Shown here: one piece after another, positions 2,395-11,988 of the stretch | How the letters are laid out: every line of letters begins with the position of its first letter | Position numbering within the stretch: the stretch's first letter is position 1 | Assembly: GCF_003860125.1 (NCBI RefSeq) | Contig: NZ_RQYL01000029.1 | Span: 1-37,108, forward strand | DNA length: 37,108 nt | DNA from: Fretibacterium sp. OH1220_COT-178 | GTDB lineage: Bacteria; Synergistota; Synergistia; Synergistales; Aminobacteriaceae | Direction of reading: 5' to 3' | Notes under the pieces: generated by a model | Database searches by the model: none | Told to the model about the DNA's origin: nothing | What the model saw: only the letters and a program-made list of their open reading frames with translations | Program-made: the position numbers and the translations under genes

Positions 2395-5058
2395 TCAGCG
2401 CTCCTGTTCCCGCTCAGGATTACGGCGTCCCCGTTCCCGGGCCGGGGCCGTTCGGCCCTCCACGCGAAGGAAATACGCCCGGTACGGCTCGGCCTTGCCG
2501 AGCTGAATCGTACCCCTCGGGCCGAAGACGAAGTTTTCCGCCGTCTCCCGGGCATACCGCTCCCAATTCCGGTAACGGTATTTCGCCGCGAACTCCCCGG
2601 CCGTCATGTTCCTGCGGCGCATCTCGGGTCCGTTCCGCTCCAGCGCCGACCGGACCTGACCGGCCGTATGTCCCGTCACCCGCATCCGGATCCCTATCAT
2701 CCCGTCCACCTGCGAGCAGTCCATCGCACCGCCGAAACGACCGGCGATGTCCTCGTAATGCCTCCAATACGCCCCGTCAGGGTCGCACGTCTCGTACTCC
2801 GTACCCCCGAGCAGATCCCGGACCTTCCTCATCGCCGCAGCCGCCCTCACGCACCGTATCTCCTTCCCGACGGCCTCCAGCTCCAAAAGCGCTTTTCCGC
2901 ACAAGCCTCCCTCCGCCTCGACCAGACACGTCGGAGGGTAGCTCCCATCCTCACGGCGGTGTTGGGGCTTGAAGTTGCCGAACGGCGGCAGCCGATGGGC
3001 ATGGACGGCGCCCGAGAGCTTCGGGTCCCCATAACGCTCGTTCAGGAGCTTCGTCAGCCTGTTGGCCGCCTCTCGCTCCATTTCGGGGTCGTCCCCCGAC
3101 TTCGGCACGGTCAGGATGGCCTGAAAGCTGCCCGGAGAGGATTCGACGACACAGGCGGGACGGTAGCCGTCTTCCTTGAGCTGTTTCAGTTTCTCCGAGG
3201 TCAGGTCGTCGACCAGGATGTGGTGCCTGTCCCGGCTCAGGGGCACGACGTTGATGTTCTTCCGGTTTCGGGCGTACCGCTCCAGAAGCCACAGCCTGTC
3301 CCGAACCTCCTCTGCCGTCCTGCCGTCCAGCCCGCCCTTGTCCCGGTCCAGGATGAACGCACGGCTCCCGTCCTCGCGGAACTCCGTCACGACGATACGG
3401 AAGCGCTCGGCCCCGACGGCCTCGGCATAGCGCCCGAAGATCTCCGTCTTTGCCCGAAGCCCGCCTCCCTCTTCCCGGTTCATCCTTCTTTCCTCCTCGA
3501 CCGCCTTACCCAGGTCCGGATTGGAGATCTTCAGCCCGTGCCGGGCGGCCGCCCTCACGCAGAGCCTGCGGTATTCCTCGTCCGTCCCGTTGATCCGGAC
3601 GCTTCCCCATTTCTGGCAGGCCAGCTGCATGGCCGCAAGGATCGCGGCCTCGTCGCGGTCGTTCTTCAGCACGATCCGACGCCCGCAGTCGATGAAATCC
3701 GCATGGCCCGGACGGCGGCAGTAGGCGACGGCAAACGCGGACCTCACGGCAGCGTAGTCCCGGATGTCGGCGGACCGGGTGCTCTCCGGAACGCCCCTCC
3801 GTTCTCCCGTCAGGACCGCCCGGCCGGGGTACCGGTAGTGCAGGAACGGCCCCTCGTCATCCAGGGCCTCGAGCCAGCGTCGGAAGCCGGGGAAACGCCC
3901 CTTGAAGCCAAAACCTTCCCGAAGCTCGGCCGTCTGCCGGCGGTGCTCGTCCCTCAGGTCCAGCTTCTCGGCCAGGTGACGCGCCGCCAGAAGGCTGCGC
4001 CGCTGGTTCAGTTCCCTCCCTCTGCCCCTCCAGCTGCCGCCCCTCCACAGAGACTCGCGCTCCGCCCTCTGCGCCCGCCACAGCCTCTCGCGCTCCTGCC
4101 TCTGGGATGCCTTCAGCTCCCGGAGCCTCCAGCTCCGCTCCTCCATACAACGGCGTCTCTGCTGTACGTAAGCCCGCCAGGAGCGCTCCACCTCCGGCTC
4201 CCCGGCAATGCGGTCCGCAGGGCGTTCCCGAAGCTCCGCCGGCTCCACGCCGTACGCACGAAACTCGCCCAGACGGGTGACCAGGCGCGAGAAACTGCAT
4301 GCACGGTCCGCCTGAGACGTCTTGACGAACGCATCCCCGATCCGCAGGACCGCCCCGCTTCCCTTCCGCTCGAAACGGATGCCCTCCACGGCCAGCCGCT
4401 CATGCAGCTCCGCCCAGCTCACGGCCCTCAGGAGGATGGGGGCAGCCGTCTCCCTGGCGATGCGCTCCGCGCTCTTCGTCCCGGTGTGCGCCTCGATGTC
4501 GCGAGCCTTCTGAGACATCCCAGGGATTTTTCTCCCCCTCTTCTCGACGATGTCGCCCTCCGGCGTAACGAAACAGCGCCCGGATTCCTCGACCTCCCAG
4601 CCCTGCGCCAGCTCTATCCTCCGTGCCGCGCGCTCGAGGGCCTTGTACGTCCAGTTTCCGGCGGGTTGAATGGCCCGCCCGGTCTCCGGGTCGATGCGGT
4701 TCACCGCAACGTGGACATGGAGGTTCCGCGTATCGCCCTGCAGTGCCCAGAGGGCCTGGCAGTCCCCGAGGTCCAGTTCGCTCAGGGCGATCTTCACGGC
4801 CTCGTCGGCCTGTTCACTTGTGGGTATTTCCATCTCGCGCCAGGAGAGGATGAAGTGGAAGGCCGGGTCCTTGCATCGGACGTTTTCCGTCGCAAGCGCC
4901 TCCATCTCCACGAAGGCCGTGTCGGGGGAGGAGAGGTTCTGCATCCCCACGTGGAGCACGCTCCCGGCCCCGTGCCCCGTGACGCCCAGGCAGTAGTCCG
5001 TGAGGGCCTTGAAGCTCGTCCTGCCGTCCCGTCGCTTCGGGGGAACCTTGGCGATCAC
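2395..5058 (-). CDS. MobP-type relaxase fused to LPD7 and RepB-primase-like domains
   Basis: This is an 887-aa mobilization protein starting at GTG 5056-5058. That start overlaps the mobC stop in a GTGA junction, so translation is probably coupled; the frame continues upstream, but that part only shadows mobC. Residues 1-200 are a VirD2/MobA relaxase. They include HFILSWREME and the metal-binding HxHxxxN motif (HVHVAVN, 114-120). It should nick one strand at oriT and stay attached to the 5' end. Residues about 290-380 are very rich in Arg, Glu and Trp and probably helical. About 430-520 resembles LPD7 (DYAAVRSAFAVAYCRRPGHADF, shown here only as a landmark). About 545-715 resembles the RSF1010 RepB-type primase (VVTEFREDGSRAFILDRD, then HRLPPFGNFKPQH). 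Such fusions can prime the transferred strand in the recipient. The primase activity is inferred from the domain and was not tested. Confidence 0.85.
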   Translation of the reverse strand: MIAKVPPKRRDGRTSFKALTDYCLGVTGHGAGSVLHVGMQNLSSPDTAFVEMEALATENVRCKDPAFHFILSWREMEIPTSEQADEAVKIALSELDLGDCQALWALQGDTRNLHVHVAVNRIDPETGRAIQPAGNWTYKALERAARRIELAQGWEVEESGRCFVTPEGDIVEKRGRKIPGMSQKARDIEAHTGTKSAERIARETAAPILLRAVSWAELHERLAVEGIRFERKGSGAVLRIGDAFVKTSQADRACSFSRLVTRLGEFRAYGVEPAELRERPADRIAGEPEVERSWRAYVQQRRRCMEERSWRLRELKASQRQERERLWRAQRAERESLWRGGSWRGRGRELNQRRSLLAARHLAEKLDLRDEHRRQTAELREGFGFKGRFPGFRRWLEALDDEGPFLHYRYPGRAVLTGERRGVPESTRSADIRDYAAVRSAFAVAYCRRPGHADFIDCGRRIVLKNDRDEAAILAAMQLACQKWGSVRINGTDEEYRRLCVRAAARHGLKISNPDLGKAVEEERRMNREEGGGLRAKTEIFGRYAEAVGAERFRIVVTEFREDGSRAFILDRDKGGLDGRTAEEVRDRLWLLERYARNRKNINVVPLSRDRHHILVDDLTSEKLKQLKEDGYRPACVVESSPGSFQAILTVPKSGDDPEMEREAANRLTKLLNERYGDPKLSGAVHAHRLPPFGNFKPQHRREDGSYPPTCLVEAEGGLCGKALLELEAVGKEIRCVRAAAAMRKVRDLLGGTEYETCDPDGAYWRHYEDIAGRFGGAMDCSQVDGMIGIRMRVTGHTAGQVRSALERNGPEMRRRNMTAGEFAAKYRYRNWERYARETAENFVFGPRGTIQLGKAEPYRAYFLRVEGRTAPARERGRRNPEREQER

Positions 5059-5363
5059 CGGGCCACCCTCCTCTCCAGTTCCCGTGCGCAGGCCGTCAGC
5101 GCTCCTATCGCCTCGGCGGTCCTGGCGCTGTACGTTCCACGCGTCTCGTTGTGGATGTGCTTCAGGAGCCCGCCCAGCCGGCGCAGCTCCGCGAGCACCC
5201 GCAGGTCCGTCTTCGGCACCACGCGCCGTCCGAAGAGACGCCGGCGCAGGTACTCCGACAGCGAGAGCGCCGCAGCGTCGGCCTGCTCCGACGCGTCCGC
5301 GTACTCCCGCTCCGTCAGTCTGGCGTAGATGCGCCTCGGGCGCCGCTGTTTTTCCTGTGTCAT
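5055..5363 (-). CDS. mobC: MobC-like relaxosome accessory protein
   Basis: The product is about 102 aa, MTQEKQRRPRRIYARLTERE onward. It has an N-terminal ribbon-helix-helix-like segment (RIYARLTEREYADASEQADA) followed by SLSEYLRRRLFGRR and RVLAELRRLGGLLKHIHNET. That pattern is the MobC/NikA family, small proteins that bind oriT DNA and load the relaxase. The stop codon overlaps the relaxase GTG. An in-frame GTG at 5378 is a possible earlier start, but its purine-rich site is too close. Neither start has an ideal Shine-Dalgarno. An inverted repeat immediately upstream (5385-5404) could be its binding site or an autoregulatory operator. Confidence 0.8.
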   Translation of the reverse strand: MTQEKQRRPRRIYARLTEREYADASEQADAAALSLSEYLRRRLFGRRVVPKTDLRVLAELRRLGGLLKHIHNETRGTYSARTAEAIGALTACARELERRVAR

Positions 5364-5384
5364 GTCGTCTCGCCGCACTCCCTA

Positions 5385-5404
5385 CGCACTCCGGCGGGAG
5401 TGCG
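5385..5404. promoter_or_regulatory. Inverted repeat upstream of mobC (operator/oriT candidate)
   Basis: CGCACTCC (5385-5392), a 4-nt spacer and GGAGTGCG (5397-5404) form a perfect 8-bp inverted repeat 22 bp before the mobC ATG. In MobP systems oriT and MobC sites usually lie just upstream of mobC. The role is inferred from position. Confidence 0.4.
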
Positions 5405-5429
5405 GGGCCGAAAAGGGGTTGCAGGGGGA

Positions 5430-5562
5430 TAACTCCGTTTCCCAATCATTTGTAGGCAAGGCGGCTTTTGCGAACCGCGGCGAAGGCGTACATAACAGTA
5501 CGTCGAGCAAGGTGAGCAAAAACAACGAAGCATACGAAGGATTTGGAATCGGAATAAGTCCT
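5430..5562. repeat. Long imperfect palindrome, MITE/REP-like element
   Basis: The segment from about aactccgtttcccaatc to ggaatcggaataagtcc folds back on itself with arms of roughly 60 nt around the centre gtacataacagtac. Matching arm pieces include CCAATC/GATTCCAA-type ends, GCTTTTGCGAACC against GGTGAGCAAAAAC, and GGCGTAC against GTACGTC. There is no credible coding content. Such elements are usually dispersed, non-autonomous repeats. Here it sits between mobC and the candidate oriT region. Arms and ends were matched by eye. Confidence 0.5.
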
Positions 5563-6224: not shown

Positions 6225-7742
6225 ATGATCGTCGACGAAAAGCGTATTCTCGACCTGATAAAACGCGGCGAGGGAATTTCACTGGAGTTCAAATCCTCCT
6301 GTCGCCAAATCAATCGTGATGTTTACGAGACGATATGTGCCTTCCTGAACAGAAACGGCGGCACTTTGCTGTTGGGCGTCCGAGACTCGGGCGAGATCGT
6401 TGGCGTCGAAGCCGAGGCCGTGGAAGGGATCAAAAAAGATTTCGTCAACACGGTGAACAACCCGCAAAAGCTCAATCCCCCCGCCTATCTTTCGATCGAT
6501 GAGGTTTCCCTCCAAGGGAAAACCCTCCTGCATGTCTACGTCCCGGAGAGCTCCCAGGTGCATCGCTGCAACGGACGCATCTACGACCGTAACGAGGACG
6601 GCGACCTCGACATCACGGACCAGACCCCACAGGTCGCTCGGCTTTACCAACGCAAGCAGAGCACCTACACCGAGAACACGGTATATCCCCATATCGGATT
6701 GCAGGACCTCAGGAAGGACCTCATCGAGCGCTGCCGTAAAATGGCGGCAGCATGGACGGCCGGGCACCCCTGGAGCCAGATGGATGATGCCGAGCTGGTC
6801 CAGAGCGCACAGCTCATGCAGACCGACCCGCAAACGCTCCAGCGCGGCGTGACCCTGGCCGGCGTTCTCCTGCTCGGCGGCGACAACCTCATACTCTCGA
6901 CCCTGCCCCATCACCGAACCGACCTCATCCTGCGCAAGGTGAACCTCGACCGCTACGACGACAGGGATCTCGTCCGCACCAACCTGATCGACAGCTACGA
7001 CCGTATCATCGCCTTCGTTCAGAAAAACCTGCCGGATCCCTTTTATTTGGAGGGGGTCGAACGCATCAGCGTCCGCGACACGATCTTTCGTGAGGTGGCC
7101 TCAAACATCCTCATCCACCGGGAATATACCAGCGCCTTTCCGGCCAAGCTGATCATCGAATATGGCCGGGTCCGCACGGAAAATGCCAGCCGGGCCCATG
7201 GCTTCGGCCTTTTGGACCCGTCTAGTTTCAGCCCATATCCCAAAAATCCAGTCATTGGAGCTTTTTTCAGGGAAATTCATCGTGCGGATGAGTTGGGTTC
7301 CGGCATGCGAAGGATGCTGCGTTACGGCAAAACATATGGCGGAGCAGACCCCGAGATGATCGAGGGGGACATCTTCCGTATCGTTGTCAGCGTCCCCGAA
7401 TTCAGTGGCATCGCCCACCGAGAGTTTTATTCCGAAGCTGCCGGCACCCAGTCGGCACCCAGTCGGCACCCAGTCGGCATCCAGTCAGCACCCAGTCAAG
7501 CCCAATACAAGATCCTGGTTTACTGTCTTGAAGAACGCTCTTTTTCCGAGTTGTTGGGGCTTTCGGGAAGGAAAGACCGTACCAAATTCCGAAGGCAGGT
7601 CCTGACGCCCATGCTCGACGCCCGATGGCTCGAGAGGACCATTCCCGACAAGCCCACCAGCAGACAGCAAAAATACAGGTTGACCGAGGCCGGGAAGGCC
7701 CTTCTGAAAAACCTGGAGAACGGGCAGGGGACAGAGGCATGA
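6225..7742 (+). CDS. AlbA_2 (Schlafen-type) DNA-binding / HATPase_c_4 ATP-binding protein
   Basis: This is a 505-aa protein with a strong GGGAGGAGG site before ATG 6225. Residues about 14-130 are the AlbA_2/Schlafen-like domain (GISLEFKSS, AFLNRNGGTLLLGVRD). Residues about 270-400 resemble the HATPase_c_4 module (FREVASNILIHREYTS, ADELGSGMRRML). The last 75 residues look like a winged helix (FSELLGLSGRKDRTKFRRQV, WLERTIPDKPTSRQQKYRLT). These proteins are common on mobile elements and are annotated as putative regulators; some relatives take part in defence, but the role here is unknown. The linker between the ATPase-like part and the winged helix is encoded by five 11-bp tandem repeats (7443-7497). 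Because 11 is not a multiple of 3, gain or loss of one unit would change the frame of the C-terminal domain. Confidence 0.85.
   Translation: MIVDEKRILDLIKRGEGISLEFKSSCRQINRDVYETICAFLNRNGGTLLLGVRDSGEIVGVEAEAVEGIKKDFVNTVNNPQKLNPPAYLSIDEVSLQGKTLLHVYVPESSQVHRCNGRIYDRNEDGDLDITDQTPQVARLYQRKQSTYTENTVYPHIGLQDLRKDLIERCRKMAAAWTAGHPWSQMDDAELVQSAQLMQTDPQTLQRGVTLAGVLLLGGDNLILSTLPHHRTDLILRKVNLDRYDDRDLVRTNLIDSYDRIIAFVQKNLPDPFYLEGVERISVRDTIFREVASNILIHREYTSAFPAKLIIEYGRVRTENASRAHGFGLLDPSSFSPYPKNPVIGAFFREIHRADELGSGMRRMLRYGKTYGGADPEMIEGDIFRIVVSVPEFSGIAHREFYSEAAGTQSAPSRHPVGIQSAPSQAQYKILVYCLEERSFSELLGLSGRKDRTKFRRQVLTPMLDARWLERTIPDKPTSRQQKYRLTEAGKALLKNLENGQGTEA
7443..7497 (+). repeat. Five-unit 11-bp tandem repeat within coding sequence
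   Basis: The unit GGCACCCAGTC occurs at 7443, 7454 and 7465. Variants follow at 7476 (GGCATCCAGTC) and 7487 (AGCACCCAGTC). The repeat is read through all three phases and encodes the linker TQSAPSRHPVGIQSAPSQ. A change of one unit would put the downstream winged-helix domain out of frame, since the unit length is not divisible by three. Confidence 0.95.
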
Positions 7743-7858: not shown

Positions 7859-8635
7859 TCATCCGGGGTCGTAGAATCCCTCACTGACAAGCCAGTCACG
7901 GAGACAGGGAAGACGGCCTTCTTCTCCCTTGCCGACGAGCTTCTCCGCCTCTTTCTCGAAAATGTCGAACCGCCGACGAACAGTCCTCAAACGCCTCTCC
8001 GTCTCCCTTTGCGATATCCCGACGGGGAACAAGGCCAGAAAAGCCTTGCGGGCTTCACCCCGATACTGCTTGCAGGGGGTATGTTCCCAGAGCTCCGTAA
8101 AGACATCCTGAAGCATGGGACTGTCGATCTCATCCGGTTCGGACTCTGTTTCCTTTTCGTCTTCTCTGTCCTTTTTTCTTGTGTCATAGTGTTCTTGTCT
8201 TTTGGGTATAGTTCTCTGGGTATAGTTTCCGGCTCTTTCGGACCCGACCTCGCAATCCGTCGGAGCCGACCTGTCGGACGCCGATCCGACGTCGGCATCC
8301 TCAGGGCCGACGTCCCCGGAGCCAACCTCGGCTCCGTCATCGCCACACTCCTCGATACGGAACGGCAAAGAGTAAAGCGTACGGTCGAACTCCCTGCTCC
8401 CCGGTATCAGGCGCTGCTGTCGGGTAACGTATCCGGCCCTCTCCAGGCGCTGAAGGGCACGTTTGGTCGTGGCCAGGGACACCCCGGCACGCTCCGCGAG
8501 CCTCGAGAGGCTCGGCCAGGCTTCGCCGAAAGCGTTCACGAAGGTGTCCAGCGCCGAATAGACCACTATGTCCAGGGCCCTCAGACTCTCGTCCCCGAAC
8601 ATCTCCAGAGGAATCATCGCAAATTTCCTGTCCAT
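7859..8635 (-). CDS. HTH_36-type replication/initiator-like protein
   Basis: The product is 258 aa, starting MDRKFAMIPLEMFGDESLRA at ATG 8635. That start has an AGGGGGG site; the frame runs further upstream without one. Residues 20-85 form a winged helix (SALDTFVNAFGEAWPSLSRL, AERAGVSLATTKRALQRLER, AGYVTRQQR), the HTH_36 fold seen at the N-terminus of plasmid and phage replication initiators and DnaD-like proteins. A low-complexity acidic linker follows, with repeated (D/E)VGS pieces, then a Lys/Glu-rich stretch. The C-terminal 90 residues contain TELWEHTPCKQYRGEARKAF. Its place between the relaxase region and the excisionase/integrase genes suggests a role in replication or maintenance of the excised IME. 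That role is inferred. Confidence 0.65.
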   Translation of the reverse strand: MDRKFAMIPLEMFGDESLRALDIVVYSALDTFVNAFGEAWPSLSRLAERAGVSLATTKRALQRLERAGYVTRQQRLIPGSREFDRTLYSLPFRIEECGDDGAEVGSGDVGPEDADVGSASDRSAPTDCEVGSERAGNYTQRTIPKRQEHYDTRKKDREDEKETESEPDEIDSPMLQDVFTELWEHTPCKQYRGEARKAFLALFPVGISQRETERRLRTVRRRFDIFEKEAEKLVGKGEEGRLPCLRDWLVSEGFYDPG

Positions 8636-8878
8636 CCGACTTGCCCCCCTACAGAGACTGCCATTTTTCAAAAGCCTTCCTTTGCATCGCGGAGATGCCC
8701 CACGCCCCAACAGCCGAGGCGATGCCACGGACGGAGCGATTTTTCCGTTTCAACAGATCTCGAAGAAAGGACTCGGGAGGAATCGTGAAGTGCTGTGACT
8801 TGATGACGCGGTGAATCCCTTATCCCCTGGCTAACCTCCTATGCACGATCTGCACCATAAATCTTTCGTCGTTCTTTT

Positions 8879-10367: not shown

Positions 10368-11615
10368 CTAAAAACTCTCCTGTTTTTCAGAAGCACAGGG
10401 AACAGCTTCAGCCCTAGAAGAAAAGCCTCTCAGCCCGTCCAGCCAGTCCGCCCAGGCCTGCATCATTTCTCTCCGTTCCGGCAATCTTTCCGCACGATTG
10501 TAGGCGGCTCTGACGCTGTTGCCTTCCACATGGGCAAGGCTCAGCTCGATGAGGTCGCTGTTCCAGCCCTGTTCATTCAGATTGGTTGAAGCGGTAGTCC
10601 GGAATCCGTGCGCCGTCATCTGCTCATTGGTATAGCCCATTGAGCGGAGGGCTACCCGCACCGTGTTCTCCGACATGGGAGTACTTTTGGAGGTGATTGC
10701 GGGAAAAACGAAACGGGAATCCCCACTCAGAGGTTCCAGAGCTTTCAGGATATCGATGACCTGGCGCGCCAGTGGAACGATATGAGCCCGTCGATTCTTC
10801 ATGCGGGTTTCGGATATGCGCCAAAGCGTTGCGCCGAAGTCCATTTCCTTCCATTCGGCCTTACGGATCTCTCCCGGCCTTTGGAACGTATAGAGCGAAA
10901 ACCACAGGGCGGCGCGTACGATGGGGCTTCCATTGTACGACGCGATGCGCGTCATCAGATCCGCCACGTCCTTCGGGGCCGTGAGAGCTCCAAAATGGCG
11001 TACCCGCCTTGGTTTCAAAGCCCCTTTGAGATTCATGGTGACATCGATCTCCGCGTCGCCCCTCGCGATGGCGAAACGCAGAACCTGACCCACGATCAGT
11101 TTGGATTTGTAAGCACTTTCCGGCGTTCTCTGCTCAATGGCCTGCAGCAGGCTCAGGACTGCCTGCGTCGAGATCTCACGAACCGGACACTCGCCTAGCC
11201 GGGGCAAAATGTAGACCCTCAACTTGTGCCTGACATCCGTGCAGTGGGAGGCCGACCAGGCTCCCGCCTGCTGTTGATACCACTCCTCGGCCACGCGCGC
11301 GAAGGTCATGGCCTTGATGGCCTCCACACGGGCGGCCTCCTCGCGCTCGGCGCGTTTTTTCTCCTGTGGGTTGACTCCCATTGCGAGCTCGTGCTTGAAA
11401 GCGTTTTTCAGCTTCCTCGCATCGGCAAGCCCAATGAGCGGGTACGGCCCAAGCCCCGCCCTCTTTTCTTTCCCATCCAGCCAGTAACGGAGCACCCAGC
11501 TTTTGGCCCCGCTCTTTTTCACCAGGAGCATAAGCCCATCGCCATCGGAGAGAGAGTAGTTGCCTCCATTTTCACGGGCTTTTGCATTTCGGACCGCCAT
11601 TTCTGTCAATGCCAT
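10368..11615 (-). CDS. int: P4-type tyrosine integrase
   Basis: The product is 415 aa from ATG 11615 (MALTEMAVRNAKARENGGNY), with GGGAGGGCAGAGAA ahead; an upstream in-frame extension lacks a ribosome site. Residues 1-90 are the DUF4102 arm-binding domain (SLSDGDGLMLLVKKSGAKSW, GLGPYPLIGLADAR). Residues about 105-190 are the core SAM-like domain. The catalytic domain has Arg246 (RPGEIRKAEW), His336 and Arg339 (HGFR), His362 (LAHVEG) and the nucleophile Tyr372 (AAYNRAE), so it should be active. Enzymes of this type usually insert elements at the 3' end of a tRNA gene. tRNA-Ser(GGA) lies just beyond, consistent with this being the integration end of the IME. Confidence 0.93.
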   Translation of the reverse strand: MALTEMAVRNAKARENGGNYSLSDGDGLMLLVKKSGAKSWVLRYWLDGKEKRAGLGPYPLIGLADARKLKNAFKHELAMGVNPQEKKRAEREEAARVEAIKAMTFARVAEEWYQQQAGAWSASHCTDVRHKLRVYILPRLGECPVREISTQAVLSLLQAIEQRTPESAYKSKLIVGQVLRFAIARGDAEIDVTMNLKGALKPRRVRHFGALTAPKDVADLMTRIASYNGSPIVRAALWFSLYTFQRPGEIRKAEWKEMDFGATLWRISETRMKNRRAHIVPLARQVIDILKALEPLSGDSRFVFPAITSKSTPMSENTVRVALRSMGYTNEQMTAHGFRTTASTNLNEQGWNSDLIELSLAHVEGNSVRAAYNRAERLPERREMMQAWADWLDGLRGFSSRAEAVPCASEKQESF

Positions 11616-11628
11616 TTCTCTGCCCTCC

Positions 11629-11787
11629 CGTATAACGATTTTGAACATGCCTGTGTATAACGAAAACCCACGCCGTATAACTCCAAGAGTCCACTAAAAC
11701 ATTGCAGGGACTATTGAAACGGGGTTTGACCGTATAACTCCCAAGGCTGTTCCGAGTTCTCAGCTCCATTATACAGTTTGTTATACG
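11629..11787. repeat. Repeated CGTATAAC boxes in the integrase leader (arm-site or operator candidates)
   Basis: CGTATAAC occurs at 11629, 11674 and 11731. TGTATAAC occurs at 11654, and an inverted GTTATACG at 11780. The copies at 11674 and 11731 extend to CCGTATAACTCC. They cover the region between the integrase start and the tRNA. Short repeats here are typical of integrase arm-type sites flanking attP, or of autoregulatory operators. Confidence 0.55.
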
Positions 11788-11900: not shown

Positions 11901-11988
11901 TGGCGGAGACGTAGAGATTCGAACTCTAGGAGCATTGCTGCTCAGACGCTCTCCAAGCGCCCGCCTTCGACCACTCGGCCACGTCTCC
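11901..11988 (-). tRNA. tRNA-Ser (anticodon GGA)
   Basis: The acceptor stem GGAGACG pairs with CGTCTCC; discriminator G and CCA are encoded (CCA at 11901-11903). The anticodon stem GGCGC/GCGTC closes the loop TTGGAGA, giving anticodon GGA (UCC/UCU codons). A long variable arm (class II) and the T-loop GTTCGAATC are present. It is the likely integration neighbourhood of the IME. Confidence 0.95.

Follow-up and report, generated by a model that had tools for sequence, protein, structure and literature searches.

Short tandem-repeat arrays accompany exchangeable winged-helix tails in Schlafen-type, defence-associated proteins

The window, i.e., the whole stretch of DNA analysed (37,108 bp, contig NZ_RQYL01000029.1 of Fretibacterium sp. 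OH1220_COT-178), contains a gene for a 505-aa protein which carries a short tandem array near its 3' end. The following features were assigned to the gene and its surroundings:

2395..5445, minus strand: relaxase - RepB primase of the surrounding mobilizable element (Pfam)
5055..5378, minus strand: NikA-like mobilization protein (Pfam)
6225..7742, plus strand: gene for the 505-aa Schlafen/AlbA_2 - GHKL-like ATPase - winged-helix protein (ORF, Pfam, homologues, AlphaFold, Foldseek)
6270..6605, plus strand: SLFN_AlbA_2 domain, aa 16-127 (Pfam, E 5e-20; alignment; Schlafen and SAMD9 fold matches)
7068..7391, plus strand: GHKL/HATPase_c_4-like ATPase part, aa ~282-389 (weak Pfam match, conserved columns, weak Foldseek match)
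7404..7484, plus strand: disordered linker, aa 394-420, pLDDT about 30, containing most of the array (AlphaFold)
7442..7497, plus strand: 11-bp tandem array, CGGCACCCAGT in 5.1 copies, translated GTQSAPSRHPVGIQSAPSQ (TRF, codon-shuffle control)
7509..7685, plus strand: PF21247 winged helix of subtype 3 ('DRTKF/NRTKF') (Pfam, clustering)
7859..8728, minus strand: HTH_36 protein, putatively replication-initiator-like (Pfam)
10368..11648, minus strand: tyrosine integrase with Arm-DNA-bind_3 and Phage_integrase domains (Pfam)
11901..11988, minus strand: tRNA-Ser(gga), adjoining the integrase (ARAGORN)

The gene seems to travel as cargo on an integrative mobilizable element, since its neighbours are the NikA/relaxase-primase module, the HTH_36 protein and the tyrosine integrase located next to tRNA-Ser; the initial annotation of the locus, made from the sequence alone, had also placed it on a mobile element. 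Pieces of an IS3-type transposase (HTH_Tnp_1, rve) are found in several short ORFs at 386-1581, by the mobilization genes, and probably represent a decayed insertion sequence. A Pfam search of the neighbouring genes in the window gave no defence genes beside the 505-aa gene. The same genome has a further COG2865-type gene (G000:C23:3551-3715; L002, L167), the tail of which is GHKSVSGKL-like; it is continued in frame by QPESQPESLEEQVGALL, which resembles the beginning of a second, displaced cassette.

Homologues of the 505-aa protein are 44-75% identical and occur across many phyla; no NCBIfam family covers it, and PADLOC returned weak partial matches to this protein alone. The AlphaFold model, computed from an input of 40 homologues with one plasmid-derived row excluded, has a mean pLDDT of 84 and confidently predicted domains. 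The best whole-length structural match in Foldseek is DIP2311 (PDB 3lmm; E about 1e-18), of the COG2865 group of RecG-C-terminal-like regulators, at a low identity of about 15%. The N domains of Schlafen 11, 5 and 13 and the tRNase domain of SAMD9 match the model partially. E16 and E21 are invariant and D54 is nearly invariant in the 40 aligned homologues; these candidate RNase residues may form the Schlafen active site, going by SLFN11 numbering. In the ATPase-like part, E290, N294 and H298 are invariant in the same alignment, HATPase_c_4 reaches 21.6 bits at aa 336-382 (under the gathering cut-off of 26 bits), and histidine-kinase catalytic domains are weak Foldseek matches. The C-terminal winged helix (pLDDT 83-93) was assigned to Fic-like_C (PF21247, aa 429-487) with 52.8 bits against a cut-off of 27, and it matches the Fic protein structure 4rgl in Foldseek.

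The array at 7442-7497 is the top-scoring tandem array of the window (TRF: 5.1 copies, 93% matches, score 98), which agrees with the five units counted originally, and its position between the ATPase-like part and the winged helix was borne out by the Pfam layout. It consists of three exact units, followed by one copy with C>T and one with G>A, and lies entirely inside the ORF. The period-11 score of the ORF is 37, compared to a maximum of 8 among 300 codon shuffles; unrelated periods in the window score 7-15 and period 22, the double of 11, scores 28. The array is thus confirmed as genuine and far above chance. Like in simple-sequence contingency loci, in which a change of unit number inside an ORF alters the frame if the unit length cannot be divided by 3, gain or loss of one 11-bp unit was claimed to shift the frame and to remove the winged helix. 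The computed products support this: 431 aa after loss of one unit, 463 aa after gain of one, 452 aa after loss of two and 442 aa after gain of two, all without the winged helix, which is retained with three units more or fewer. It had further been pointed out that all three phases of the repeat are open. This is true, but carries no independent weight, because any ORF crossing at least three 11-bp units reads the unit in each phase.

Homologous loci were collected by a protein search in the phylum and from 84,980 species genomes (best 80 of 319 hits), viral contigs and a few plasmid records. The counted set comprises 111 non-redundant loci that cover the N-domain end; they come from many phyla and include archaea and phages. 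These loci were picked by N-domain similarity and, therefore, the array frequency holds for the subfamily sampled. All unit counts derive from assemblies, many of them metagenomic; clusters, array types, the subtype cut and frame scores are our own definitions, implemented in custom scripts. A homologue on a Pseudomonas plasmid was set aside as uninformative, as the protein stops before linker and tail. A scan of viral contigs with the window's tail alone as query yielded no relatives, and a gammaproteobacterial homologue found no match in a within-species comparison in E. coli.

Near-perfect DNA repeats were present in the linker of 94 of the 111 non-redundant homologues (the species-genome part being the best 80 of 319). 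The period was 12 bp in 79 of the 94 arrays and 11 bp in 15; in this set, basic periods of 9, 15 or 18 bp were not found, just 11, 12 and their multiples, and the N domains of the array-bearing genes contain no arrays. Of 499 comparable four-fold degenerate sites, 470 (94%) have the third base of the preceding unit, while 35% would be expected from the gene's own codon use; hence, the units are recent DNA copies. Since a 12-bp unit cannot shift the frame, frame switching is not a family-wide property. The general property of the family is the mutable array.

Codon usage in the 12-bp arrays differs strongly from that in the N domains of the same genes: CAA makes up 87% vs 36% of the Gln codons, TCA 62% vs 9% of the Ser codons and GGG 54% vs 15% of the Gly codons. 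An AGTC core recurs in two reading phases, 23 loci having one and 11 the other. Codon bias and two-phase core together point to common descent or to a DNA-level constraint acting across reading frames, and speak against independent slippage from unrelated codons. The two periods (loci L032-L121) are also close to one turn of the DNA helix. Arrays with PF21247-type tails occur on other AlbA_2/COG2865 subfamilies too (L129, L136, L150, L156), so that relatives in the wider COG2865 group share this arrangement; on Fic proteins, the PF21247 tail is mostly found without a clear array. In the homologue of a Mycoplasma phage (MW353172; L125:2696-3235), a near-perfect 219-bp duplication (98%), part of which is apparently winged-helix-like, is flanked on either side by 12-bp and 23-bp arrays. 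No description of the arrays was found in the open-access literature on repeat peptides, COG2865 or repeat-joined winged helices.

For comparison of arrays and tails, 86 tails were clustered and quick trees were computed, the winged-helix tree from about 55 columns. All eight homologues of winged-helix subtype 3, which is the window's own, have 11-bp arrays. Subtype 1 has GAHD-type units and subtype 2 mostly GAES/GAQS. By tail cluster, 6 of 7 tails with 'SRTGNFKKAL' were scored as GAHD-type and 11 of 17 in the 'GHKSVSGKL' cluster as GAES/GAQS-type, and the large 'LKDRxxF' cluster has TPQV/TGEV units, four of its members being 11-bp. The array type requires 28 changes on the N-domain tree, but only 11 on the winged-helix tree (shuffled mean 34 for both). 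The period requires 11 and 5 changes, respectively, against 12.3 for shuffled data on both trees, i.e., on the N-domain tree the period is distributed no better than random. Furthermore, pairs 85-90% identical in the N domain share a tail cluster in only 39% of the cases. On these tree comparisons, the array was shown to be co-inherited with the winged-helix subtype and not with the rest of the protein.

Among genes with N domains 82-96% identical, the winged helices are unrelated in some cases, and the breakpoints lie at the array or close to it. Two lentisphaerotal loci (L074/L079) are 87-100% alike up to and into the array (93-100% in its vicinity), 64-74% just past it and 83-97% at the conserved wing, a profile as in cassette replacement. 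L052/L055 (Chlorobiota) show the reverse pattern, with 73-93% ahead of the array and 97-100% once it has begun. L065 (Gammaproteobacteria) and L099 (Desulfobacteraceae) belong to different phyla and have different tails, but their N domains are 93% alike. For L066/L081, identity drops at or near the start of the linker, not clearly within the array. Mixed arrays are present in L048, L078, L097 and L079; L048 is a mosaic in which three 11-bp units of the GTKS type precede three 12-bp AGEV units, and in L078 and L097 several unit types are joined in one array. As judged from these alignments, exchange of tails was shown, with several of the breakpoints at the array.

Remnants of tails were observed next to some intact genes. 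A relic GPES-type array lies about 30-170 bp upstream of the gene in L074 (2834-2971) and L079 (2846), in L074 together with the end of a winged helix, and L088 has a winged-helix remnant directly downstream of the gene's own stop (3048-3158). In L116 (988-4449), a Fic protein, an HTH/nucleotidyltransferase-like ORF and a Schlafen-type protein are encoded in a row; the first and the third carry sister tails, each made up of repeat and winged helix.

Unit number differs between close relatives. The viral contigs L113 and L121 have three and two units of 12 bp, while 1140 bases of the N domain are 99.9% alike and 400 bases upstream are identical. L052/L055 have 4.2 and 6.4 units. Two other species of Synergistota (L157/L165; loci 96% identical) have three and two units of 11 bp before a winged helix of the window's kind, both copies being orphan tails, i.e., relics. 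Change is not always fast, since L007, L008 and L013 are 97% alike and have identical arrays. Of the 13 scorable 11-bp loci, 12 have the winged helix in frame, as do 63 of 67 12-bp loci (Fisher's exact test, P = 1). Under free drift of unit number, one third of the 11-bp loci would be expected in frame; the chance of at least 12 is 2e-5. Thus, in-frame alleles are maintained, intact alleles are the rule, and among the scorable 11-bp loci ON and OFF alleles are not both common. Tails out of frame via an 11-bp array were found in L094, in which removal of two units would restore the frame as read off the sequence, and in L152, a pseudogene-like relic. Three contigs (L006, L022, L102) stop inside the array, a weak hint at mixed lengths.

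A defence gene lies directly upstream in all ten homologues scanned (BrxC in six, SNF2-type helicases in two, HmaA and a type IIG restriction enzyme in one each), in line with the defence-type role suggested before; these upstream genes were hand-picked as long and adjacent and, therefore, no frequency can be derived. A same-strand ORF of at least 200 aa ends at the gene start in 23 of 77 loci. According to passages of a published survey (PMC12839542), proteins composed of Schlafen domain, minimal histidine kinase and wHTH are widely linked to BREX, occurring in BREX and BREX-related loci. They have the domain order described here, which fits the homologues behind BrxC; unlike them, the window copy is located on a mobilizable element without BREX genes. 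The term 'tandem repeat' does not occur in the text of that source, and its passages on these proteins do not mention tail exchange.

The observations on array, tail and frame are probably best explained (probability about 0.6) by the array acting as a joint prone to slippage, which connects a conserved effector half with a winged-helix cassette that can be exchanged, frame switching being secondary. The effector half would consist of the Schlafen-type nuclease and the GHKL-like ATPase. The array encodes a disordered linker which can grow or shrink unit by unit; it would also provide short repeated homology and travel with the cassette, and winged helices would be exchanged there between genes, in frame. 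The 11-bp type belongs to the winged-helix subtype of the window. As the frame of this tail is lost when one or two 11-bp units are gained or lost, ON/OFF control may arise as a by-product or serve as a secondary switch. We infer that the repeats themselves cause the tail exchange. The tail would presumably be the recognition or sensing part, and the protein an anti-phage RNase, i.e., an RNA-cleaving effector. A mutable linker combined with ordinary homologous or illegitimate recombination of tails would predict much the same picture. More tentatively, and at somewhat less than even odds, the same process may diversify the recognition tail of a defence protein family-wide: the near-identical 11/12-bp arrays with a shared AGTC-type core would be a built-in joint for recombination and length variation. 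Through it, effectors of the Schlafen, COG2865 and Fic types in bacteria, archaea and phages would swap their winged-helix tails without loss of frame, with relic tails or tails nearby as a source.

The locus had originally been read as a phase-variable switch; in its full form, this reading would have 11-bp slippage toggle the winged helix at high frequency as a selected bet-hedging device. Part of this stands, namely the frame arithmetic, the change in unit number (L113/L121, L157/L165) and the out-of-frame homologues L094 and L152, and the contig ends inside arrays could reflect mixed lengths. Switching as the purpose of the repeat, however, is unlikely: most arrays are of the 12-bp type, which cannot switch, 11-bp loci are in frame no less often than 12-bp loci, L152 and L157/L165 are relics, and the contig ends are few. 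Comparison of the C-termini of homologues revealed the two out-of-frame tails and tied the array to the winged-helix subtype, marking tail exchange. A frame switch is possible for the 11-bp subclass including the window, but the data give no indication that it occurs commonly. Rather doubtful is an account by passive slippage, in which a disordered linker tolerates repeats, array and tail correspond through linkage alone and the repeats have no role in exchange. The disorder of the linker in the AlphaFold model, the adjoining position of array and tail and the recent duplication of the copies are in keeping with it; it is harder to reconcile with the restriction to periods of 11 and 12, the likeness of the unit DNA across phyla (CAA and TCA excess, AGTC core in two frames) and the breakpoints at the array. 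The match between unit type and winged-helix subtype and the conservation of the DNA across reading frames would also be expected if the unit were a binding site of the gene's own winged helix, with autoregulation inside the gene. This is very improbable, and the unit as operator was rejected: in the 250 bp upstream of 67 genes it is not enriched beyond chance (best match 8.8 vs 8.6 in shuffled sequences, of about 12), and the clear upstream exceptions, L074 and L079, are relic tails.

In polymorphic toxins and in specificity exchange of the HsdS type, a conserved front is combined with an exchangeable recognition or effector end, and displaced relic ends lie beside the gene. The present family resembles these systems in its conserved front, exchangeable end and nearby relics, but here a short array prone to slippage forms the joint, and what is swapped is the winged helix of an intracellular protein. 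It differs from simple-sequence contingency loci in that most members have 12-bp units and out-of-frame alleles are rare. If the reading as a slippage-prone joint is correct, a large and little-studied group of defence-type proteins can swap its presumed sensing tail quickly while the effector is kept, by a logic comparable to the shuffling of specificity subunits, with a DNA repeat as the hinge. The array would then be a marker for exchanged tails and, therefore, sensing could be tested by comparing natural swaps on near-identical effectors such as L074/L079 and L065/L099.
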